Under the pieces are notes generated by a model. The model was not told the DNA's origin. It did not search any database and saw only the letters and a list, made by a program, of their open reading frames with translations. DNA of 41,856 nucleotides, taken from contig DYEX01000042.1 in NCBI GenBank assembly GCA_020725525.1, positions 1-41,856 of the forward strand, read 5' to 3'. Made by a program: the position numbers and the translations under genes. Positions 4,209 through 16,922 of the stretch are shown piece by piece. The DNA is from Desulfovirgula sp. (lineage in GTDB: Bacteria > Bacillota > Desulfotomaculia > Desulfotomaculales > Desulfovirgulaceae). Numbering within the stretch: the stretch's first letter is position 1; each line of letters begins with the position of its first letter.

Positions 4209-4970
4209 CTACTGCACCGGCCTCAGCATATCGAAGTTAACTATTTCCAGAATGTCCCCCCGTACCATCATGGCGTATATGCCGTTTTTGGTAAGCAGGT
4301 CCACTGTGTTTCCAGCCATGTCCAGGGCGGCGTAAATGGGCACCACCCGGCGGCCTTTTATCTCCGGGATGAATTCGGGCAGTTCAGCCAGCTTTTCGAC
4401 AAAGTCGTATACGTACTCCACCCGGTTGGGCGAAGCCTTCACCTCCACCACAAAGGCCAGGTCCCCGGCCAGGGCCAGGATATCTACCTCAAAGGTGCGG
4501 CCATCCCGACGTATCTTCCGGCGGGGCATCACGTCTTTTACGACCACATGGAAGTATTTCTCTATGGCCAGGTCTATAGAAGGCACAAAAATATCTTCGA
4601 TGAGGGTACCCATTTTACGGGCCAGTTCCCCCCATTTCTTGTTCATTTCGTCTTTGAAGTCCTTCATTTCATCCTTAAAGTCTTTCATTTCGTCTTTGAA
4701 GTCCTTCATCTCATCCTTGAAAACTTTCATCTCGTCTTTGAAGGCTTTCATCTCGTCTTTGAAGTCCTTCATCTCGTCCTTGAAAGCCTTCATCTCGTCT
4801 TTGAAGTCCTTCATTTCGTCTTTGAAGGCCTTCATCTCCGCTTTAAATTCTTCCATACCCTCGGCCAACTGCTTCAACTTGATCTCCGTCAGCCTTGACT
4901 CGTAGGCCAGCTCCATCATGGCCTTTTCCAGCGCGCTGAGCTTTCTGGCCACCGTACTCAAAGGCAACAC
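4209..4970 (-). CDS. Heptad-repeat coiled-coil protein with PD-(D/E)XK nuclease-like C-terminal domain (DUF3782-like)
   Basis: 253 residues from a GTG at 4970 (TTG at 4967 or 4961 is also possible; the AAGGAT site is close). Residues 1-41 are helical. Residues 42-111 are ten consecutive heptads of the form FKDEMKD/A, a long straight coiled coil. Residues 112-253 look like a PD-(D/E)XK nuclease fold: Glu125 in GTLIEDI, Asp163 in RTFEVDILA, and Glu176-x-Lys178 in VVEVKA, followed by a helix and strands. Similar proteins (DUF3782 and relatives) occur in thermophiles and cyanobacteria with unknown function. All nuclease-motif residues are present. DNA cleavage is inferred from the motif only. It has no partner gene, lying between the toxin island and the first subtilase. 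Confidence 0.75.
   Translation of the reverse strand: MLPLSTVARKLSALEKAMMELAYESRLTEIKLKQLAEGMEEFKAEMKAFKDEMKDFKDEMKAFKDEMKDFKDEMKAFKDEMKVFKDEMKDFKDEMKDFKDEMKDFKDEMNKKWGELARKMGTLIEDIFVPSIDLAIEKYFHVVVKDVMPRRKIRRDGRTFEVDILALAGDLAFVVEVKASPNRVEYVYDFVEKLAELPEFIPEIKGRRVVPIYAALDMAGNTVDLLTKNGIYAMMVRGDILEIVNFDMLRPVQ
4638..4847 (-). repeat. Ten tandem 21-base units coding for coiled-coil heptads
   Basis: Within the gene at 4209-4970, ten 21-base units follow each other with few changes, each coding for FKDEMKD, FKDEMKA, FKDEMKV or a close variant. Third-base changes (TTC/TTT, GAC/GAT) between units show they are not all recent copies. Such an array can gain or lose units by slippage without leaving the frame. 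Confidence 0.9.
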
Positions 4971-5111: not shown

Positions 5112-8100
5112 TTACAGACTGGTTGATCCGGCATCGATCACACGCAGAACCGGACCGCGCATGTAGATGTTGGGTCCCGGGACGAGGTAACCCTTCACCC
5201 GTATATTCCGGCCCAGGTGGGCATCGAACCACAGGGAGAGGGCCTGATCCGAACGGTCTGCGAGTAAAACGTAGTTCCTGTCTCCCACGAGCAGCTCGTA
5301 GTGCGGCCGCTCGACGGTGCTCATCACGAGCCTGCCTTCCAGGGTGACGGCTTCCTCGAAGAGTCCCAGCCGGTCGCCCAGGCGGGCCAGAAGCGTTGCA
5401 CACTGCGCTCTGGTTACCATGGACCCGGGTGCAAACAGCCGGTCATCCACGCCCCGCATCAGGCCGCGGGAGCAGGCGGTGGCCACTGCCTGCCGCGCCC
5501 AGGGAGCGATTTCCCGTTCGTCGGCAAAGCTTACCGTTTGAGCACTGCCGGTCAGTCCGGCCAGGCGTACCGCCACGGCGGCCATTTCCTGCCGGGTGAG
5601 GGTGGCGTCCGGCCGGAAGTTGCGCCCGTCACCCGCAAGCAGCCCGGCCCGGGCCGCCGCTTCCACCGCCCCGTAGTACCAGGCGGACGGTTCAACGTCG
5701 GCAAAGGCAGGAGATTCCGGCCGCACTTCGGAGAGGCTCAGGAGTTTCACCAGCAGCGCGGCCAGCTCGGCCCGGGTTACCGGTTTCCCGGGCCGGAAAG
5801 TGCCGTCCTCATAGCCGCCAATGATCCCCCGGGCGGCCATAAGCTCGATGTCCCTCTGCGCCCAGTGAGTGCCAACGTCATTAAAGGTCTTTTTGAGAGC
5901 AAAGATGGCGTAGCTGGAGAAGTGGCTCAGTTCTACCACCACGGTGCCCTTTTCCCGGTTAAGCCTGCCGCCCACCGCCGCCCAGGTTCCGTCGTTGTTC
6001 TGCCGGAAAACCTGAAGCGTCCGCGGGTCCAGGCTTCCCAGCCTGGATGCATCGTATTTGATGCCGACCTTCACCGGTCTGGCCAGGGGCGCGGAAGTTT
6101 GGAAGCTCAGCACCGGGCTTGCCGCTATAGCTCCGGCAGGGGCACCGGTCGGAGTTTCCGCGGCCACCGCAACGGTCAGACTGGCATCTTTGGGCAAAGC
6201 ACCGGCGGGAATGTCGAGAGCCACCAGGCCGTTTAAAACTTCCGCCTTTTGGGCTTCACCCGTGGCCTTCAGTTTAGCGGTACCCGGAGCAGGTTCAACC
6301 TTCGGCTGCGGAACCGGAGCACCGCCGCCACCTACTCCACCGACGCTACCGCCACTGCTTCCGCCGCCGCTGCCGCCAGTGCCACCAGTGCTGCCGGTCT
6401 TTTGCAGGGAGTTGACGTGGTCCAGGGCCTGCTCCAGGTTCAGCATGCCGCCGGAAGCCACTTTATCCCTCAGATCGCCCAGGGAAGTAACACTTTGTTT
6501 CAATATACTGATTAACTGGCCGGGAGGAATTGCTACACCCAGGGCAAGGGCCCGCGAAAGGGCCAGCGCCGCCCCGCCGGAAACGAAAGACGCGGCCATG
6601 GAGGTGCCGCCGGCTGTGGCATACGGTTCGTAGGTCAGCACAACCTTCCCACTGTCGGAAGAGGGCTGGAGCATATCAATCCAAGCTGGCTCTACGCCGT
6701 CAAGCAACCAGCTCATAAACGGTTTTAAAGTGTAGTTCATCCCTTCAAAAGGCCCGTAGGCGCTACCGCTGACACTCTCCGGACCCGTCCATTCACCCTG
6801 GAAATTAGCCCCTAGATATTTCCTGTAAAAGTCGGTGGCCTCAATTCCCCAACCGGCATCCGAGCCAGTTAAAAAGAGTTTCCCACCTTGTTCCAGATAG
6901 TTAATTAAATTAGACTGGTCACCGGGTGTAAGGTTAGGCAGATCCCAGTTGTCGGGATTCCCCGGTTCGCTACTCCACGAATGCCCGGTGCACCAGATCA
7001 CCGCGCTATAGGCAGCGGCTGAAACAGACGGACCATCTTCGCCTCTTCCTACTTTAACCAGTCTGTAATTGTAGCAGGCGTCTTCTAAAACACCGGTATA
7101 GTAAAAACTCACATCCGGAAGGTTAAAGATAATTTCCCCTAACCCGTCAACGGAAATTTGATACTGGCCGTCCTGGTCATCATCAACAATCAGAACAGGA
7201 CGATTAACAGTATCATCGGGCGTGATATCGAAGAAATTATAGACAACCCGCATGACACTATCGTACACCGCATTGACGGTGCTTCCCGGCGGATTGTAAA
7301 TATCCTCCGCTCCCAGGCCCCAAAACATGACCCGGTATCCTTTTTCACTGTCGTAAACGGAGAGGGCTACCCCGGTATCATCATGACCCGGTACGGTGCT
7401 TATAATACCTTCCCCCGGTGCGGCCAGATCAACAGATTGAGCACCGCAGTTGGAAAAGTAGGCCAGGCTTCCGCCGGGAGCCAGAGCCGCAACGGAGACG
7501 ACATTTGTTAAAGCGGGCAGGTTCACCCATTTATTCTGGGTTTCGTCATAAACTGTGTTTGGTCGGTTGTAACAGGCCGGGTAAACCGGTAGTTCATCGT
7601 TATTATTACCTTCGTTGTTTCCAGCAGCGGCCACAAAAAGAGTTTGCGGATACCGGGCAATGGTATCGTAAAGCGCTCGATCGAAATATGCGGTAGGATT
7701 CTCACTATTCCCCGGCGGGTAAGCAAAACTCATATTCACCACCTTTGCCCCGTTATAAACTGCATAATCTATGGCCACCTTAATGGCAGCGGTGGTAAAA
7801 TTGCCGTTGCGGTCGGCCGCCTTGAGGGCCATAATTTTCACCCCCGGAGCCACTCCGGCAATTCCCTCGCCATTGCCGGCCACGGCAGCGATGATCCCGG
7901 CCACATGGGTGCCGTGGCCCAGTTCGTCCATGGGATCGTTATCCGGCTGGGAATTGAGAAAGTCATTGCCGATGAAATCATATCCAACAGTATCATCTTT
8001 ATATCCGTTACCGTCATCGTCTTGACTGTTACCAGCTACTTCCCTGGTGTTGCGCCAAATATTCTCCGCCAGATCGGGGTGGTTGTAGTCCACTCCAGTA

Positions 8101-8585
8101 TCAATGACGGCCACAATGATGCCCTCTCCTGTTGCATAATTCCACGCTTCGGGGGCCTTTGTCCCATATTGCCCACCGAGACCCCATTGCTGCCCGTAGA
8201 GAGGGTCATTTACGGTAACTGCACAGGGACGGTAGATGTAGTTCGGCTGCACATATTCCACCCGGGGGTCTTTTTTCAGGGCCTCTATGGCCTCTGGCAC
8301 GTCCTTATCCGTCTTAAAAAGTGAAGCTCCATTCGGGAGGGCCCTCTTTTCCGCCAGGCCCAGCCCCCGGTGGGCGGTAAACAGCCGGCCTTTAGCTTCG
8401 GCGGTCTTGACCCCCGGTTTGAACTTGACGATCACCTCGCCCGGCACATAGGGCGCCGGTGCCGCATTCTTCCCGCCCTTCGCGCCGGGCAGAAAGGGCA
8501 GAGGGCGCGCGGACGCCGGTCCGGCTGCAGTCATCAGCAGCAGCACGGCGGTCAAAATGGCGGCAATTGCCTTGCGAAAGTTCAA
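5112..8585 (-). CDS. SLH-anchored S8 subtilase with a large insertion in the catalytic domain
   Basis: 1157 residues from a TTG at 8585, chosen because AGGAAGGAG lies about 10 bases upstream and a signal peptide follows directly (cleavage near PASA-RP, residue 27). Residues 48-118 are an inhibitor-I9-like prodomain (PGEVIVKFKPG). The catalytic triad is Asp162 (VIDTGVD), His224 (GHGTHVAG) and Ser662 (GGTSMAAS), with oxyanion Asn323. Asn to Ser spans 339 residues against about 66 in subtilisin; residues about 403-653 are an insert starting with VLIVDDD and containing YLEQGGKLFLTGSD, like a Rossmann or amidotransferase-type fold. Then come a Gly/Ser linker (730-755), a ZU5-like domain (760-895), three SLH domains (900-945, 960-1010, 1020-1070) and a small beta domain. 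It would sit on the cell wall and cleave proteins outside the cell. All catalytic residues are present. Confidence 0.92.
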   Translation of the reverse strand: MNFRKAIAAILTAVLLLMTAAGPASARPLPFLPGAKGGKNAAPAPYVPGEVIVKFKPGVKTAEAKGRLFTAHRGLGLAEKRALPNGASLFKTDKDVPEAIEALKKDPRVEYVQPNYIYRPCAVTVNDPLYGQQWGLGGQYGTKAPEAWNYATGEGIIVAVIDTGVDYNHPDLAENIWRNTREVAGNSQDDDGNGYKDDTVGYDFIGNDFLNSQPDNDPMDELGHGTHVAGIIAAVAGNGEGIAGVAPGVKIMALKAADRNGNFTTAAIKVAIDYAVYNGAKVVNMSFAYPPGNSENPTAYFDRALYDTIARYPQTLFVAAAGNNEGNNNDELPVYPACYNRPNTVYDETQNKWVNLPALTNVVSVAALAPGGSLAYFSNCGAQSVDLAAPGEGIISTVPGHDDTGVALSVYDSEKGYRVMFWGLGAEDIYNPPGSTVNAVYDSVMRVVYNFFDITPDDTVNRPVLIVDDDQDGQYQISVDGLGEIIFNLPDVSFYYTGVLEDACYNYRLVKVGRGEDGPSVSAAAYSAVIWCTGHSWSSEPGNPDNWDLPNLTPGDQSNLINYLEQGGKLFLTGSDAGWGIEATDFYRKYLGANFQGEWTGPESVSGSAYGPFEGMNYTLKPFMSWLLDGVEPAWIDMLQPSSDSGKVVLTYEPYATAGGTSMAASFVSGGAALALSRALALGVAIPPGQLISILKQSVTSLGDLRDKVASGGMLNLEQALDHVNSLQKTGSTGGTGGSGGGSSGGSVGGVGGGGAPVPQPKVEPAPGTAKLKATGEAQKAEVLNGLVALDIPAGALPKDASLTVAVAAETPTGAPAGAIAASPVLSFQTSAPLARPVKVGIKYDASRLGSLDPRTLQVFRQNNDGTWAAVGGRLNREKGTVVVELSHFSSYAIFALKKTFNDVGTHWAQRDIELMAARGIIGGYEDGTFRPGKPVTRAELAALLVKLLSLSEVRPESPAFADVEPSAWYYGAVEAAARAGLLAGDGRNFRPDATLTRQEMAAVAVRLAGLTGSAQTVSFADEREIAPWARQAVATACSRGLMRGVDDRLFAPGSMVTRAQCATLLARLGDRLGLFEEAVTLEGRLVMSTVERPHYELLVGDRNYVLLADRSDQALSLWFDAHLGRNIRVKGYLVPGPNIYMRGPVLRVIDAGSTSL

Positions 8586-8860: not shown

Positions 8861-8889
8861 GGAACTTTTGGCTGTGAAAAGGTGTCTAA
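8861..8889 (+). promoter_or_regulatory. ECF-type promoter of the sigma/anti-sigma operon
   Basis: GGAACTTTT starts at 8861 and GTCTAAC at 8884; GAACTT to TCTAA is separated by 17 bases. This is the form bound by many ECF sigma factors, which commonly drive their own genes. It places transcription start near 8896, about 38 bases before the TTG at 8934, and rules out the TTG at 8868, which lies between the two boxes. The same pattern recurs at 2448-2475 on the other strand. Confidence 0.75.
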
Positions 8890-8933
8890 CAGGTAAGACG
8901 TGGTTTGGGGCATCTTTTAGGAGTGGCTTCCCC

Positions 8934-9590
8934 TTGGATGCCGTCAAACACCTGATACAGCGTTCGCAAAAACAGGATCTGGTGGCTTTCGAGCAACTGG
9001 TGCAGATGTACCAGCAAAGGGTATACAGCTTGAGCTACCAGTTAACAGGCAACCACGCCGATGCCCAGGATCTGGCCCAGGAGGTTTTTATCCGGGCATT
9101 CCGCTCATTGGACGGCTTCCGTTTTGAGGCGGATTTCGGCACCTGGTTGCACCGCATTACCGTCAACCTGTGGTTGAACATGAAACGCCGGCGCGGTAAT
9201 GTGACCCTTATTTCACTGGACGAACCGGTACATACCGGTGACGGGGAAGTTACCCGGGAGGTGGCGGCTGCTGCCGGCGACCCGGAGGAGGAACTGGAGG
9301 AAAAGGAGTTCCGGGGCCTGGTGGGCAGAGCCCTGCAGGAACTTCCCGCCGAACAGCGGGCCGTGCTCATTCTGCGTGAAGTGGAAGGCTACAGCTATGA
9401 CGAAATAGCCCGGATGCTCGATCTTTCCCTGGGCACGGTAAAGTCCCGGCTGAACCGGGCGCGGGACGCCTTAAAGAAAAAGGTATCCGCCCTGACCGCC
9501 GAAGATGGAATGGCAGTATGCGGTGGAAAAAGCAGAACCGGGCCGGCGGTAGTCTTAAAGGAAGGGGCCGGCGCAGGCCGGACCAGGTGA
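8934..9590 (+). CDS. ECF (sigma-70 family group 4) RNA polymerase sigma factor, SigW-like
   Basis: 218 residues from a TTG at 8934, supported by TAGGAG 10 bases upstream and by the promoter position. Region 2 runs about residues 8-70 (AFEQLVQMYQQRVYSL, then the acidic DAQDLAQEVFIRAF and the -10-binding LHRITVNLWLNMKRR). Region 4 runs about 135-185 (LPAEQRAVLILREVEG, then the helix-turn-helix YDEIARMLDLSLGTVKSRL). There is no region 1 or 3, as usual for ECF factors. It would direct RNA polymerase to the GGAAC/GTC promoters when released from the anti-sigma factor coded next. About 30 residues after region 4 are basic and low in complexity. The operon with the zinc-finger anti-sigma gene supports the role. 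Confidence 0.93.
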   Translation: MDAVKHLIQRSQKQDLVAFEQLVQMYQQRVYSLSYQLTGNHADAQDLAQEVFIRAFRSLDGFRFEADFGTWLHRITVNLWLNMKRRRGNVTLISLDEPVHTGDGEVTREVAAAAGDPEEELEEKEFRGLVGRALQELPAEQRAVLILREVEGYSYDEIARMLDLSLGTVKSRLNRARDALKKKVSALTAEDGMAVCGGKSRTGPAVVLKEGAGAGRTR

Positions 9591-9633
9591 GTTACCTTTC
9601 CGGGACATGTGATGAAACAAGAAGGTGAACACC

Positions 9634-10980
9634 ATGAAATGCCGGGAAGCGCGACAACTTTTTTACCCCTGGCTGGACGGGGAACTGGGTAAAGAAGAGG
9701 CCCGCCGGCTCCAGGAACACCTGCAGGAGTGCCCGGCCTGTGCGGAGGAACTGGCAGGATGGCAGGTTATTGCTTCGGCGTTAAAGGGCATGTCCAGAGC
9801 GGCGGCGCCGCCGGAAGGGTTTAGCGCGCAGGTAATGTCCCGGCTGAAGGAATCCCTGTCCGATCAGAAGGCTTATAGCGCCGGGGGCGCCTCCACCGGT
9901 TCCAGGCTGCCGGCGGATGGTGGACATATGCCGGCCGGGGCGGCAGCCTCCGGCAAGCAGCGGAAGGCGGCAATTATCCCCGGCAGCCCGTTGCCCGGAG
10001 CCGGGCGGGGAAAGGACGCCACCCGGAGGGTATGGACGCCCGGAAGCTGGTGGGAGGGGCTTTCCGGCACCTGGCGCAAAGGCGTGGCGGCAGCGGCTGC
10101 CGCGGTCATACTGCTGGCAGGTTCCGCCGGCTTTGCCGCCCGCTACTGGTGGCCGGCGGGAGTGTTGAATAGTTCGCCCGTGGTGGTGGATAACTCCGCC
10201 GGCCATAGCGGGCAGGCCTCGGGGAAGGATGACACTATTGCAAATACGGGTAAGCCGGGGCAGGATGTGCCGGCAAATTTAAACAACGGGCCCCGGGGAA
10301 CCCAAACCCCCGGTAGACAGGAAAACGCGCCCGCCGGGCCCCGTGACAGGGGCGATAAGGCAAATAAGGAAGGCGACCGTTCCAATGAACCGGCTGCTCC
10401 CGGCCGGGCTGCAAACGGGGGAGTACAAAAGAGCCGGCCTGAACAGCCCCGGCAAAGTGACAACAAACAGGGCGTCGCCATCGCGGCAAACACCGGACAA
10501 TCTGTAAGCAGCAAGTCCGGCAGCGGTGGTGCCATTGAACCGCGGGTATTCCTGAACCAGACCCGCACTATTGAAAGCACCCTGTTGAAGGTCCAGGTCT
10601 CCGACCTGCAGGCGGCGAAAAAGACACTGCTGGCCGCAGCGGGAGGAAGCAGCTACCAGAGCTTCGGCCGGCAGCGGGTCGATGGGCATACGGTGGAAAT
10701 CCTGCGCTTTGTGGTTCCGGTGGAGCGGGCCACATCCTTCACCGCCACGGCCTCCGGACTGGGGCGGGTGATGGACCGGCAGCAGCAGAGCCAGGACATT
10801 TCCCAGCAGTTCGCCTCCACCCTGGACCGCTACCAGACCCTCATAGCCAAACGCAACCAGACCACTGACGGGGCCGAAGCGGACGCCCTGGATCAACAGA
10901 TCAAGTCCCTGGAACAGCAGCTGGCCGCGTGGGACCAGGAGGCGGGACAGCAGGTAGTGGTGGTGTGGCTGCAGGAGTAG
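9634..10980 (+). CDS. Membrane anti-sigma factor: zinc-finger (ZAS) domain fused to an external DUF4349 domain
   Basis: 448 residues from an ATG at 9634 (AAGGTGA six bases upstream; a GTG at 9625 would add three residues). Residues 1-50 are a ZAS anti-sigma domain with Cys3 and His29-x3-Cys33-x2-Cys36, the zinc ligands, and would hold the ECF sigma factor at the membrane. One membrane helix lies at about 150-170. A Pro/Gly/Asn/Gln-rich linker (about 175-300) leads to a DUF4349-like domain (about 302-448) with RTIESTLLKVQVSDL and a terminal coiled coil. Most DUF4349 proteins end in a second membrane helix; this one stops at VVVWLQE without it, so the domain would be free outside the cell and could be the sensor. 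It lies 43 bases after the sigma gene, in one operon. Confidence 0.88.
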   Translation: MKCREARQLFYPWLDGELGKEEARRLQEHLQECPACAEELAGWQVIASALKGMSRAAAPPEGFSAQVMSRLKESLSDQKAYSAGGASTGSRLPADGGHMPAGAAASGKQRKAAIIPGSPLPGAGRGKDATRRVWTPGSWWEGLSGTWRKGVAAAAAAVILLAGSAGFAARYWWPAGVLNSSPVVVDNSAGHSGQASGKDDTIANTGKPGQDVPANLNNGPRGTQTPGRQENAPAGPRDRGDKANKEGDRSNEPAAPGRAANGGVQKSRPEQPRQSDNKQGVAIAANTGQSVSSKSGSGGAIEPRVFLNQTRTIESTLLKVQVSDLQAAKKTLLAAAGGSSYQSFGRQRVDGHTVEILRFVVPVERATSFTATASGLGRVMDRQQQSQDISQQFASTLDRYQTLIAKRNQTTDGAEADALDQQIKSLEQQLAAWDQEAGQQVVVVWLQE

Positions 10981-12387: not shown

Positions 12388-12417
12388 CAAAAAAAAGAAA
12401 AGCCTCAGCTGGAGGCT
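12388..12417 (-). terminator. Rho-independent terminator overlapping the stop of the second subtilase
   Basis: On the minus strand AGCCTC (12417-12412) pairs with GAGGCT (12406-12401) around a five-base loop and is followed by TTTC and a run of T. The TGA stop of the gene (12407-12405) lies inside the hairpin. Confidence 0.85.
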
Positions 12418-15400
12418 GTTATCAGTGCACGCAAACGCCAGGCAATGACCGCCGCCTGGGCGCGGGTAAGGGGCTCTACCGGGGCGAAGCGCCCATCGGG
12501 ATACCCAACCATCAGCTGCGCTTCCGTCACCAGGGTTACGGAAGGACGCGCCCAGCCCGGGACGGCGTTCCAGTCCCGGTAAGGGGGTAAAGAGCCCGTC
12601 CCTCCCATGGCTGGATCACCCGAACCGCCTGCGGCAGCCGGCGGCCGGAGCCGAACACCTGAAGCTGCATCTCCCGTCCCTCCGGAAGCACCACCGTGGG
12701 CGGTGGAAGTACCTGTGTTTTGTATATGGCGCTCTACCCCGATGCTGCCGGCTTCCCCGCCCTCTCCCACCAGGCCGGTCACCTGCAGCACCCGGGCCAG
12801 GATGGTCGCCGCTTCCGCCCGGTTGACCGGCCGGTCCGGTTTAAAGGTTCCGTCCGGGTAGCCGGAAACGATGCCCCTGAGGATGGCTTCCCGGATTCCT
12901 TTTTCGGCCCAGGACGGCAGGTCGGAGGGCGCGGAATTTGCGGCCCGGCCGTCGTTGCCGTTACCCGGCCCATGTGCCGGAACATTTCCGGAAGAAGACG
13001 GCAGTTTACTCGCCGGCGGGGGCTCCGCCTCAATCGCTGACCCCTGGTTCACCGGGCCAACCGTATTACTGGCAACTGCCGGGCCCTTACCGTTGCCCAA
13101 AGAACCGGCAATACCCCCGTCCCATCCCAGCACCCGCACCAGCATCAGGGTGAACTCCGCCCGGGTGACCGCCTTTTCCGGGTGGAATTTCCCGCCGGGA
13201 TAGCCGCCGACCAGCCCCAGCTGAGCCAGTTCCCCGATTTCCTTTCTCGCCCAGTGGCCCTGCAGGTCGCTGAACAGGGCCTCCAGGGGTACGGTCAGGT
13301 ATTCACCGGCCACGCCCCCATTGCGCCGGTCCACGGCCACCAGCAGGATGGTGTCACCGGCATTCCGGGGCAACCGGGCTTCGAAGTAGCCCCGGCCGTC
13401 GGGTGCAGCCAGCACGGGTCTGCCCTCTCTGGGATAAATATAAATTTTGCCGGCTGAAGTTCTACCTTTCACCACAAAACCGTTGTCTTCAGGCCGGCAG
13501 GTGGCCTGCAGCGAGGGAGCCGGTACTCCGTCGCGGGAACGGGCCTTGATGGCCGCCACCACCCCCGTTTTCCCCTGGATGCCGGACAGAATGGTGAATT
13601 CCACCTCTTCCCCGGGCAGGAGGTCTTCCACGTCTACGGGATAGCCGTTTTTGGTGATCAGGGTGCGGGAGGAAAGGCGCCCTTCCTGGCCGCCGGAAAA
13701 GCTAACCACTCCCCCGCCGGGATCCAGCCCGGCCAGCCTGGCGCTGCCGCCGGCGGCCACTTCGGCCACGTCCACCCGCAGGACGCTCTTTGCGCCCCCG
13801 GACAGGGTTACCCGCACCCATTCTCCGGGCAGCAACGAGGAAGGTTCATTGGGCCGGCCCCAGCGGAAAAAGAGGGTGCTGGGGGTAATGGCCAGGGAGC
13901 GCATTTTATTCTGGCTGTCCACCAGAAGGATGGACTTGCTTTCTTCCTTATAAAACACCACCTGCCCGTAGATCACCTGCCGGTGGACGTCGATGGATAT
14001 GGCCTGGTCGCCCGCCAGAATCAGGCAAACATGGTCTCCCGGTGCAATACCGCCGGGGGAGGCGGCCCTCCCGTCCAGGGTTACCGGAAGGCCGGGCATG
14101 AGCCGGTAACGCCCCGCCCCCTGCAGCTTCAACCAGCTCCGCCCGGGATCCATCTCCTCCACAGTGCCTACGGCCAGGGTGCGCTGCACCGCCAGGTAGA
14201 CCACTTCGTCCTGGCCCGGGGAAAGCATCAGTCTCACTTTCATACCCGGTGCCAGCTGTGAGAGATCACCGTCTACAGGGTAGCCATAGGGCAAATCTTC
14301 CGGGCTGGCGGATGCCAGCCGGTCATCAAAGGCGCAGGCGGCGCCGGCAGCCAGCCGGTAGGGCTGCTGCCGCCCCAGCAGGTAAATCTGCCCGTGCTCT
14401 TCATCCACCCGGTCAATAATGCCTTCCTCTTCCCGGAACCAGGCCCAGGCCCGCCAGGCCATCTGGGTGGTGGGATTGATGGAAGCCCACAGCCGTACGC
14501 CCGGGGGAATATCCCGCATACCGGCCGGCCTGTCGTTAACCCACAGGGGGCTTTCCGCCCGCCGGTCCAGGTAAAAGCCCCCTTCCCGCGCCCGGGGACT
14601 GGCCTCCTGGAGCAGGGTTCCGGAGGCCAGGGGCAGCAGCTCCACCGCATTTTGCCGCCAGACACTGCCCACTATGTAAAGAATGCGGTTCCCCTCATCC
14701 ACGTAGGCCTCCGCCCCGGGCAGGGCGTGGTCTATGGTCCAGGGCGGGGTTTTGCTGCCCAGGACAATGCGTCCCTGCTCGGGGAATACCGCCGTGGTAC
14801 CGTCGGTAAAGCGCACCTGGCGGCTTTTTTCATCCGCAGCGGCAATAACCTTTTTGGCCAGGGGCTGGCCGTAAACCAGGGCGTAATCCTGACCGGGTGC
14901 TGTCCCCGGTTTTGCGCCCCGGCGCACGTCCGTGCCCCGCACTATAATCGTATATGTACCCCTGGCGGGGTGAGGTATTAACACCTGCTCCACATTGTTG
15001 CGGTCGTCCCGCCTGCCCCCGCCTTTATCGTTGCCCAAATATTCCCTGCCGTCCGGGCCGACCACCACCAGGTCCAGGTCGTTCACCAGCGCCCGGTCCG
15101 CTCCCGGCTCGGCGGGGGGGTCGGTCCAGGCCAGGGTGGCCTTGAAGGGGCGGGTGGTATCTTCCACCGCAAACCGGTAGGTCTTACTGTCCCCAGCGGC
15201 CAGGGGAGCGGATTCATCGGCGTAAAGGAAGGTCTTTTCCTGCAACCCCAATACCGTAGCGGTTAGATCCAGGCGGCCGAACCCCGCCCCTTCCCCGCCC
15301 ACGGGGGCGGCTCCGTTGATCAGGGCCGCCTTGAGCAGGGCCGCCGAGGGCGCTTTTAGCCCCTGCTGCTGGAAGTGCTGCCGCAAAAGGGCGGCCGCCC

Positions 15401-16922
15401 CGCCGGCTACCGCCGCGGCCATACTGGTTCCCTGAAGGCGGGTATACTGCGGGTTGGCGGAGAAATTTCCCTTCACCAGGGGGGAACGGGCCGAAACAAT
15501 ACCCGTCCCCGGTGCCACCAGGTCAGGGCGGATACGCCCGTCTTTGGCCGGCCCCCGGCTGGAAAAGGAGGCCACTTCCCCCGCATTGTCGCTGGCAGGG
15601 CCGAAGGAGGGGCGCACACTTTCGCTGGCCCCCACCACCAGGGCGTTCTTGCTGTTGGCCTCGGCGGTGATGGTCCCGGTCCCCGGCCCGGAGTTGCCCG
15701 CGCCGAAGATAACCAGAAAGTCCGGGTTTTGCCGCACAAAGCTGTCCGTCTGGGCGGCACTGCTCAGGTAGGCGTTCACGGGAATGCCCCAGCCGTCCAC
15801 GTGAATGCGGGCGGCCGCCGCGTAGGCCGGGCGGAACAGGGCCGCCAGGTCCGCCGGGGGATCGATCTTCCCCTCTTTATTGAGGATGCCCTGAAAATAA
15901 AGGCTGGCCCCCGGGGCCATCCCGGCAAACTGCCCCCCGGAAGCGGCACCGGTGCCTGCTATGGTGGCCGCCATGTGGGTGCCGTGCCCCACCGGGTCAT
16001 CGGCCCTGGCACGGCCGGACCAGGACTTGAGCATGATTACCTTTGGTTTTTGCCCCGGTGTATCTTTCAAGTCGGGGTGCAGGTTCTCCAGGTCCCCGCT
16101 TCCCAACCCGCTGTCGGCCATGGCCACCACCTGCCCGGTGCCGTTTAAACCGCCGGGGGCGACAAACCCCGGAGCCTGCAGGGGGCTTGCGCCCACTATG
16201 CCGGCCGCCCGGTCGTTTAAGAAGCACGGGGGAGTGTATGGTTCGATGTGCAGCACCAGGGGAGAGGAGGCCATCCCGGGCAGTTCGCCTTTGGGCAGGC
16301 GCGCCCGCAGCACGCTCCCCTCTTCATCCAGCCCCCGCAGCACCTCCCCCCCGCCGGCTATCACCAGTGCGGCCAGGCCATCCTTGTCCCGGGGGTGAAA
16401 GACCACCAGGTTGACGGTAATCCGGTCGTCCCCGGAAGCACCGGCGTCCGGTGCGGGAGCAGGTTTCGCCGCACCTTTAGCGGGGGTTTCTGCAGCTTCC
16501 TTTTCCTTAGCGTACAAGCCGGCCTGCACCAGGGTTTTCAACTTTTCCTCCGGCGCGTACGGCTTTACTTCCTTTATAAAAGGCAATGCCGCCAGGTCCT
16601 TCACCCGTTTTGCGGAACAGCGCACCAGAAGTGATCCGCCGCCGGTGAAATCGCCCACTTCGGCCAGCCGGCGCAGTTGCTCCAGTTCAGCCGGCTGCAG
16701 GTACCGGGAAAGGTATAGAGAATACAGGCCCCGGTCGTCCGGGCCGGCGTCGATGACCTGTTCATCCCTGCCGCCGCCGGGAAGGACACCCGGTGCGCCG
16801 GCATCGGCCCGGTTTTTTGCCTCCTGCCCGCCCGGCAGGATAAAAGCAAAGAGAAGGCCAATCCCCGCGGCCAGCAAAAGAAAAGCCGCCGGCAGACGGT
16901 AACGCTGAAACCATTTACGCAT
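12405..16922 (-). CDS. Giant SLH-anchored S8 subtilase with tandem beta-barrel repeats
   Basis: 1505 residues from an ATG at 16922 with GGAGA 7 bases upstream. Residues 10-30 are a signal or anchor helix. The triad is Asp270 (MADSGLG), His313 (GHGTHMAA) and Ser500 (QGTSMAAA), with Asn410 (FGAGN). Residues about 560-690 are a P-like beta sandwich (VNDLDLVVVGPDG). Residues about 800-1115 hold repeats of about 70 residues, each with a PG-x-x-V motif (IPPGVRLWA, LAPGMKVRLML, IAPGDHVCLIL, LLPGEWVRVTL, LLPGEEVEFTI). SLH domains lie at about 1217-1266, 1335-1383 and 1450-1500, split by long Gly/Ser/Pro linkers. A wall-bound extracellular protease. Unlike the first subtilase, its catalytic domain has no big insert. 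The N-terminal 30-250 region may be a prodomain. Confidence 0.92.
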   Translation of the reverse strand: MRKWFQRYRLPAAFLLLAAGIGLLFAFILPGGQEAKNRADAGAPGVLPGGGRDEQVIDAGPDDRGLYSLYLSRYLQPAELEQLRRLAEVGDFTGGGSLLVRCSAKRVKDLAALPFIKEVKPYAPEEKLKTLVQAGLYAKEKEAAETPAKGAAKPAPAPDAGASGDDRITVNLVVFHPRDKDGLAALVIAGGGEVLRGLDEEGSVLRARLPKGELPGMASSPLVLHIEPYTPPCFLNDRAAGIVGASPLQAPGFVAPGGLNGTGQVVAMADSGLGSGDLENLHPDLKDTPGQKPKVIMLKSWSGRARADDPVGHGTHMAATIAGTGAASGGQFAGMAPGASLYFQGILNKEGKIDPPADLAALFRPAYAAAARIHVDGWGIPVNAYLSSAAQTDSFVRQNPDFLVIFGAGNSGPGTGTITAEANSKNALVVGASESVRPSFGPASDNAGEVASFSSRGPAKDGRIRPDLVAPGTGIVSARSPLVKGNFSANPQYTRLQGTSMAAAVAGGAAALLRQHFQQQGLKAPSAALLKAALINGAAPVGGEGAGFGRLDLTATVLGLQEKTFLYADESAPLAAGDSKTYRFAVEDTTRPFKATLAWTDPPAEPGADRALVNDLDLVVVGPDGREYLGNDKGGGRRDDRNNVEQVLIPHPARGTYTIIVRGTDVRRGAKPGTAPGQDYALVYGQPLAKKVIAAADEKSRQVRFTDGTTAVFPEQGRIVLGSKTPPWTIDHALPGAEAYVDEGNRILYIVGSVWRQNAVELLPLASGTLLQEASPRAREGGFYLDRRAESPLWVNDRPAGMRDIPPGVRLWASINPTTQMAWRAWAWFREEEGIIDRVDEEHGQIYLLGRQQPYRLAAGAACAFDDRLASASPEDLPYGYPVDGDLSQLAPGMKVRLMLSPGQDEVVYLAVQRTLAVGTVEEMDPGRSWLKLQGAGRYRLMPGLPVTLDGRAASPGGIAPGDHVCLILAGDQAISIDVHRQVIYGQVVFYKEESKSILLVDSQNKMRSLAITPSTLFFRWGRPNEPSSLLPGEWVRVTLSGGAKSVLRVDVAEVAAGGSARLAGLDPGGGVVSFSGGQEGRLSSRTLITKNGYPVDVEDLLPGEEVEFTILSGIQGKTGVVAAIKARSRDGVPAPSLQATCRPEDNGFVVKGRTSAGKIYIYPREGRPVLAAPDGRGYFEARLPRNAGDTILLVAVDRRNGGVAGEYLTVPLEALFSDLQGHWARKEIGELAQLGLVGGYPGGKFHPEKAVTRAEFTLMLVRVLGWDGGIAGSLGNGKGPAVASNTVGPVNQGSAIEAEPPPASKLPSSSGNVPAHGPGNGNDGRAANSAPSDLPSWAEKGIREAILRGIVSGYPDGTFKPDRPVNRAEAATILARVLQVTGLVGEGGEAGSIGVERHIQNTGTSTAHGGASGGTGDAASGVRLRPPAAAGGSGDPAMGGTGSLPPYRDWNAVPGWARPSVTLVTEAQLMVGYPDGRFAPVEPLTRAQAAVIAWRLRALITASS

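Follow-up and report, generated by a model that had tools for sequence, protein, structure and literature searches.

The window analysed here, a 41,856-nucleotide contig of Desulfovirgula sp. (DYEX01000042.1), encodes an S8 protease whose catalytic domain is interrupted, shortly before the catalytic Ser, by a second domain of some 250 residues. The locus raises the question of what this domain is, how it came to lie inside a protease, and what it does beside the active site. An earlier note, made from the letters alone, had recorded the order Asp162, His224, Asn323 and Ser662, with 339 residues between the last two, and had placed an extra domain at about residues 403-653 (window 6600-7380). 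The motif positions bear out both the order and the spacing, and the domain, now delimited at residues 401-654, lies at window 7385..6624 on the (-) strand.

By its profile the ORF is an S8 protease, and proteolytic activity is predicted (PF00082 at 163.8 bits against a cut-off of 21.8). The protein consists of a likely signal peptide (judged by eye), a prodomain, an S8 catalytic domain that the insert divides in two, a linker and SLH repeats (Table 1). The protease motifs are DTGVD (162-166), HGTHVA (224-229), AAGNN (320-324), EGIISTVPG (392-400) and GGTSMA (659-664), while the insert carries VLIVDDD (464-470) and YLEQGGKLFLTGSD (563-576). The Asp/His/Ser triad (D162, H224, S662) is in order, and all 27 proteins aligned share it. 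The oxyanion-hole Asn is N323 in AAGN; a G-N pair is found in all 27 printed alignment rows, with a one-residue gap ambiguity against the GNN of the window protein. The Ser motif itself, GGTSMAAS (window 6588-6611, residues 659-666), has a Ser four residues past the active Ser where 24 of the 27 aligned proteins have Pro and two others have Ala. In subtilisin, the equivalent Pro affects acyl-enzyme behaviour.

Table 1. Features of the protease gene, its insert and its divergent segment in the window.
Feature	Window position	Strand	Basis
S8 protease gene, 1157 aa	5112..8585	(-)	ORF, start TTG
Fervidolysin-type N-terminal prodomain, residues 39-115	8241..8471	(-)	Pfam PF22148, E 5e-11
S8 domain front part, residues 121-400	7386..8225	(-)	Pfam PF00082, best stretch 153-398 (of two)
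D162; H224; N323	8100-8102; 7914-7916; 7617-7619	(-)	within S8 front part
S8 domain rear part, residues 655-722 (S662 at 6600-6602)	6420..6623	(-)	motif positions
SLH repeats, residues about 900-1066	5388..5888	(-)	Pfam PF00395, 3 stretches, best 900-942; end from a stretch 901-1066
Insert, predicted circularly permuted amidotransferase-like domain, residues 401-654	6624..7385	(-)	profile alignment, structure model, ortholog comparison
Insert first piece, residues 401-455 (..GVALSVY..YRVMFWGLGAED..VVYNFFDIT), C-terminal unit of unpermuted relatives	7221..7385	(-)	hhalign columns 7-55 to template 163-204 of 204
Insert second piece, residues 462-654 (RPVLIVDDD..GKVVLTYEP), N-terminal part of unpermuted relatives	6624..7202	(-)	hhalign columns 61-226 to template 1-155 of 204
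VDDD cluster, residues 467-470	7176..7187	(-)	conservation over 26 inserts
FLTGSDAG, residues 571-578, presumed nucleophile elbow	6852..6875	(-)	conservation over 26 inserts
Divergent (recombinant) segment, about residues 257-661	6603..7817	(-)	56% nucleotide identity to L005 vs 89% outside

Three neighbouring regions can be described briefly. Upstream, at 8868-10980 (+) and divergent from the protease gene, lie genes for an ECF sigma factor and a zinc-finger anti-sigma-like protein that matches DUF4349 below the threshold; the two are possibly a regulator pair. At 12405-16922 (-) is a second protein with S8 and SLH domains (1505 aa), in which the Pfam S8 stretch is unbroken (261-539), the insert is absent, and 187 residues separate H313 from S500. 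A protein made of many near-identical FKDEMK-type seven-residue repeats is encoded at 4209-4970 (-), and all Pfam matches listed for it are below the cut-offs.

Sequence families give little purchase on the insert. At E values up to 1, Pfam lists only S8, SLH and the prodomain for the whole protein, so that no family is listed for residues 401-654. A Pfam search over 17 inserts gave nothing at the cut-off; the best weak matches were GLMA_2nd (E 0.0089) and ThuA (E 0.03), and single members matched DUF4350 (E 0.021) and ABC_transp_aux (E 0.19) weakly. The last two are families that we take to be linked to GIFT, a domain whose name reportedly comes from Beatson and Ponting in 2004. No PA family appeared at E up to 1, either for the protein or for the 17 inserts. 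A receiver-like domain, which VLIVDDD might suggest, was likewise not among the Pfam matches listed.

The structural evidence is more informative. Modelled alone from ten sequences, the insert gives a confident, ordered domain (pLDDT 81.4, pTM 0.86), the one exception being a loop of low confidence (model residues 140-151). Neither of the outcomes that the earlier note had set against its own reading, a disordered insert or a PA domain, was thus found. Foldseek returned one match at E <=0.001, 3soz, with aminotransferases and phosphoribosyltransferases, which are unrelated folds, lower in the list. With VIA-align, the Z values were 8.5 for 2gk3, 8.3 for 3soz, 6.8-7.8 for beta-mannosidase and beta-galactosidase domains, 6.7-7.1 for the IMPa metallopeptidase, 7.0 for a ThuA-like protein, 6.4 for PurQ and 5.8-6.3 for amidotransferase subunits; values below 8 may reflect a common arrangement. 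Both 2gk3 and 3soz presumably belong to the class I amidotransferase-like fold, and the model matches therefore point to this fold for the insert. The fold search proposed earlier supports the suggested amidotransferase-like or Rossmann-type reading (2gk3, 3soz, ThuA-like protein, beta-galactosidase and beta-mannosidase domains, PurQ and GMP-synthase subunits), at modest Z values (8.5 at best) and with unrelated folds lower in the same lists. A joint model of the S8 domain and the insert was poor (pLDDT 64.8), and for this reason no interdomain geometry is claimed.

Conservation within the insert is concentrated at a few positions, including VDDD, W531 and G574. In an alignment of 26 inserts, D469 is present in all, D468 in 23 and D470 in 24, and the cluster could hold a putative metal. 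FLTGSDAG is taken here as the presumed nucleophile elbow. The Cys that an amidotransferase would have at this place (residue 575) is missing from the window protein and is found in only one of the 26 inserts, that of L052 (L052:1447-2103, (-) strand), which reads SGCDAG. The window insert also has, directly after VDDDQD, an additional stretch, GQYQISVDGLGEIIFNL (window 7119-7169, residues 473-489), which is modelled as two strands and is longer than in nine compared relatives.

The order of the parts of the domain differs from that in its unnested relatives. Relatives that are not nested, in other S8 proteins and in M6 proteins, have the order VDDD...SG.D...YRVVFLAF..E; they start with L.VDDD and finish with ..YRVVFLAF..E......R..YL, and it is this final unit that stands first in the S8 insert. 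When a profile of 17 inserts was compared with a profile of 12 unnested domains (hhalign), the native insert gave two alignments in swapped order, with scores of 179.8 for the second piece and 32.8 for the first (columns in Table 1). Rotation at the predicted junction merged these into a single alignment of 1-225 to 1-204 over 197 columns, and the score rose from 179.8 to 205.9. When the rotation point was moved along the profile ten columns at a time, the score was highest at the predicted junction. In 200 shuffles of the first-piece columns, the maximum was 192.2 for the rotated profile and 16.2 for the piece alone, against 205.9 and 32.3 for the real columns; these shuffles, together with the 20 controls on 90 sequences described below, exclude a chance gain from rotation. 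Both pieces are homologous to the unnested domain and their order is swapped, and at the level of profiles the insert is best described as a circular permutant of it. The structural alignments of amidotransferase-like proteins begin only at model residue 58-66 and leave the first piece unmatched, as expected for a permutant. Two unpermuted copies of the domain are found per chain in L047, L051 and L062, a duplication of the kind that could yield a permutant by trimming.

The relation between domain order and nesting was examined across a wider sample. Both the native and the rotated profile were run against all ORFs of at least 120 aa in 179 loci; once duplicates had been dropped by a 60-residue signature, 118 sequences were left. 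The sample was collected with the nested domain as the query, so that distant unnested forms are under-sampled, and many loci extend only some 1,500 bases to each side. Scores above 140 bits with the native profile were reached by 28 of the 118 sequences (lowest 146.7; best of the rest 109.3); 17 of these 28, and none of the other 90, had gone into the profile. The 28 have the nested, permuted order and are all S8 proteins by motif. An HGT pattern lies upstream in 27 of them, and L163 has HGTG and a Pfam S8 match. GTS[MIL][AS] follows within 16 residues of the match end in 27, and the remaining sequence, L044, is cut off there and has a Pfam S8 match. Not one of the 28 prefers the rotated profile.

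Most of the other 90 sequences behave in the opposite way. The rotated profile scores higher in 74 of them, and where its score is equal or lower (16 of 90) the difference is at most 3.2 bits. It reaches the moved piece in 70, which therefore show the unpermuted order, and fails to reach it in 20; with the native profile, not one of the 90 matches extends to that piece. In 20 controls with shuffled first-piece columns, at most 39 of the 90 scored higher and at most 14 were reached. The S8 Ser motif is visible in 24 of the 90 ORFs (18 of the 70 and six of the 20), and the domain comes after the motif in every one. Nesting before the Ser motif was seen in none of the 70 unpermuted copies and in none of the 20 copies of undecided order, while the permuted copies are nested in S8 proteins in 28 of 28 cases. 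Domain order and nesting go together in this sample, and whether permutation allows a domain to be inserted thereby becomes a question open to direct test. This link between permutation and nesting is the real novelty of the locus; among titles and abstract openings in the open-licence literature, searched with narrow terms, no description of a nested permuted domain was found.

The earlier note had also called for other S8 proteins with the same insert. The whole protein was used as query against 100 related genomes and the insert against 398 genomes of the phylum; both sets yielded relatives that have the domain at the same place, and 27 further sequences of S8 proteins carry a homologous domain in the same order. 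Because these 27 share the domain order, and because an ortholog discussed below has a plain loop at this point, the insert is not a sequencing oddity. The insert profile matches in 35 of the 398 genomes of the window's phylum. In 15 of these the match starts at or before model position 6, which indicates the nested order; one of the 15, G426, is cut by a contig end. Within the window's class, 19 of 113 genomes match, 17 of them with a match start at position 11 or earlier. Two other phyla were searched in the same way: 26 of 251 genomes match in the phylum to which the Anaerolineae genome G496 belongs, and 35 of 194 in that of the archaeal genome G498. Among the matches listed for these two phyla, none starts before model position 37 except that of G937 (8-55), where the pieces 60-226 and then 8-55 follow each other downstream in one ORF, so that the unpermuted order is seen directly. 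Within these samples, the nested form is therefore confined to the S8 proteins of a single phylum, that of the window. One contig that carries the nested form, L059 (JAGUVT010000113.1), comes from a record titled Deltaproteobacteria, a title that may be mislabelled; the genome of another locus, L012 (G020), is placed in the window's order.

Outside the peptidase, the domain follows the protease in the S8 proteins L042, L062, L064, L166, L167, L169, L171, L173 and L175, and it is also present, unpermuted, in the M6 peptidases L040, L049 and L063 (M6 and S8 assignments confirmed by Pfam). In the S8 tree, seven of these proteins with an unpermuted domain after the protease (L042, L166, L167, L169, L171, L173 and L175) lie beside the insert-bearing L020, L039 and L050 (98/95), and both arrangements thus occur in one S8 lineage. 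On this tree, some rows of which are long-branched, three changes would be needed, a provisional count of gains and losses.

One ortholog, L017, has a loop of eight residues between STVPQ and PYAAWDGTSMA in place of the insert, and its S8 domain is one unbroken Pfam stretch. Its identity to the insert-bearing L013 is 79% in the S8 front, 73% in the S8 rear and 94% in the C-terminal part. In the S8 tree, L017 pairs with L013 (100/98), L052 joins the two (100/100), and all three lie among insert-bearing sequences. The simplest reading is a clean loss of the insert. As the protease motifs are retained in L017, which has no insert, the fold does not depend on this domain.

The insert is also exchanged between alleles. 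Compared with four alleles of the same genus (L003-L006), the window gene has 93% nucleotide identity in residues 760-1157, a value that falls to 52-53% within the insert. The segment fit places the divergence best at 257-661 against L005 and 269-661 against L003, with log-likelihood gains of 215.4 and 225.6; the maximum in 20 shuffles each was 16.2. The C-terminal part groups the window protein with its genus group at 100/100. L006 (G004) is the mirror case: its divergent segment runs to residue 388-396, its insert is 94% identical to that of L005, and its S8 rear is only 68-76% identical to the others, this second breakpoint being taken from a table of identities by region, not from a segment fit. 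One allele thus has a breakpoint close to the right border of the insert and the other has breakpoints close to both, and the region is a mosaic within this genus. In a tree test, the window insert not being sister to the inserts of the genus group fell short of significance (AU p 0.064), and the same test gave no rejection for residues 121-265 (p 0.406) or 266-399 (p 0.274). In L006, a divergent S8 front (residues aligned to 85-396) stands before a genus-type insert, and its residues 266-397 resemble the window allele (74%) more closely than they do the other sisters (61-62%).

How such a domain might be accommodated is suggested by its ends. According to the alignments, the strands that begin and end the insert follow each other in the unpermuted domain, with a short turn between them, and the insert takes the tip of the protease loop between STVPG and Y....GTSMA. 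In subtilisin, the corresponding loop before the Ser is a hairpin beside the S1' site. The cut would fall at the turn of the domain that links two adjacent strands (..VVLTYE / GVALSVY..), whose pairing would be retained, so that both chains would leave the insert side by side and enter the two arms of the protease hairpin. Each of the two proteins would in this way have been opened at a hairpin turn and joined to the other, giving a hairpin-to-hairpin graft beside the active site. Since such a graft would fix the insert by the Ser, the most likely role is that of a gate or exosite; the earlier suggestion of a substrate gate or binding domain is plausible in this light. At the mouth of the active site, probably on the primed side, the domain would limit and orient substrates and perhaps steady the active-site loops of an enzyme that the SLH repeats would hold at the cell surface. 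The main reading is thus of a catalytically dead, permuted amidotransferase-like (GIFT-like) alpha/beta domain in the loop before the catalytic Ser, most likely acting as a gate or exosite, to which we assign a probability of roughly 0.6.

Other explanations have to be weighed against it. The insert might be a passive addition to a thermophilic surface protease, stabilising it or protecting it from autolysis and having no part in substrate choice. Some of the hosts, Ammonifex thiophilus and Desulfofundulus thermosubterraneus, are thermophiles, and the existence of L017 is compatible with a dispensable addition. However, all 27 complete cases have the domain ending no more than 16 residues before the Ser motif, conserved positions (VDDD, W531, G574) run through it, and alleles exchange it; a passive role is therefore rather unlikely.

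A ligand- or sugar-binding module, tethering the protease to glycosylated surface proteins or to a wall polymer, would fit the beta-galactosidase and beta-mannosidase domains in the structural list, although a list of PDB sequences has them only at E 0.19. Sugar binding has been proposed for GIFT domains (PMC7226087). The SLH repeats already anchor the protein, the similarity is at the level of the fold, and any binding residues are putative, all of which makes tethering a more doubtful role still.

A third explanation concerns history and not function: the order in the insert could be the original one, as in folds of the peptidase E type, and the unnested domain the rearranged one. Alignments of peptidase E, dipeptidase E and cyanophycinase begin at model residue 14-20, whereas those of amidotransferases begin only at about 60, and a similar strand order may therefore exist elsewhere. 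Against this, bacterial and archaeal proteins of several types have the unnested order, and every nested copy found belongs to an S8 protein from the phylum of the window, so an original nested order appears improbable. Finally, the fold would allow a working class I amidotransferase or hydrolase, but with the elbow Cys confined to L052 and no Cys or His column reaching 60% conservation among the 26 inserts, such an activity is hardly credible.

The reading as a catalytically dead gate or exosite can be compared with several known systems. Class I glutamine amidotransferases and ThuA-like proteins resemble the insert in fold, with the weak ThuA matches in addition; the insert differs in lacking the catalytic Cys in 25 of 26 cases and in its swapped strand order. 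S8 proteases with a PA domain also have a domain inserted in the catalytic domain with a proposed substrate role. However, PA is another domain, with no match in the window protein, and its site precedes the APG..STVP segment of S8 proteases, whereas the insert lies after this segment. The unnested S8 and M6 proteins carry a domain that is homologous by profile, and seven of their S8 parts fall among the insert-bearing ones; their domain is, in contrast, unpermuted and past the protease.

The closest understood parallel is human site-1 protease (MBTPS1). Its GIFT subdomain packs against loops of the S8 domain, is likely to stabilise the oxyanion-hole residue N338 and may control access, and a putative calcium lies in an acidic pocket near the interface (PMC11231238). 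Like the window protein, site-1 protease combines an S8 protease with an alpha/beta domain, and the insert model matches residues 617-809 of its chain (Z 5.5, 151 aligned, rmsd 3.6), a weak match among unrelated folds of similar Z such as phosphoribosyltransferases and aminotransferases. It was not found by sequence with either profile, and its absence from those lists is not counter-evidence. Unlike the insert, which is permuted and nested before the Ser, the GIFT domain of site-1 protease follows the protease and a P-like domain. With a Z of only 5.5 and no link by sequence, the parallel is one of analogy and not of membership. We put forward, tentatively and as a possibility short of an even chance, that permutation was the route from a stand-alone domain to an active-site lid, by shifting the domain's ends into a hairpin turn and so allowing the graft beside the catalytic Ser, and that the insert is a bacterial counterpart of the GIFT control domain of site-1 protease, exchanged between alleles as a cassette and cleanly lost in L017. 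The natural pair with and without the insert (L013 and L017), together with the natural swaps, makes the role of a second domain at the mouth of a protease testable with ordinary enzymes, and the same question has been raised for human site-1 protease.
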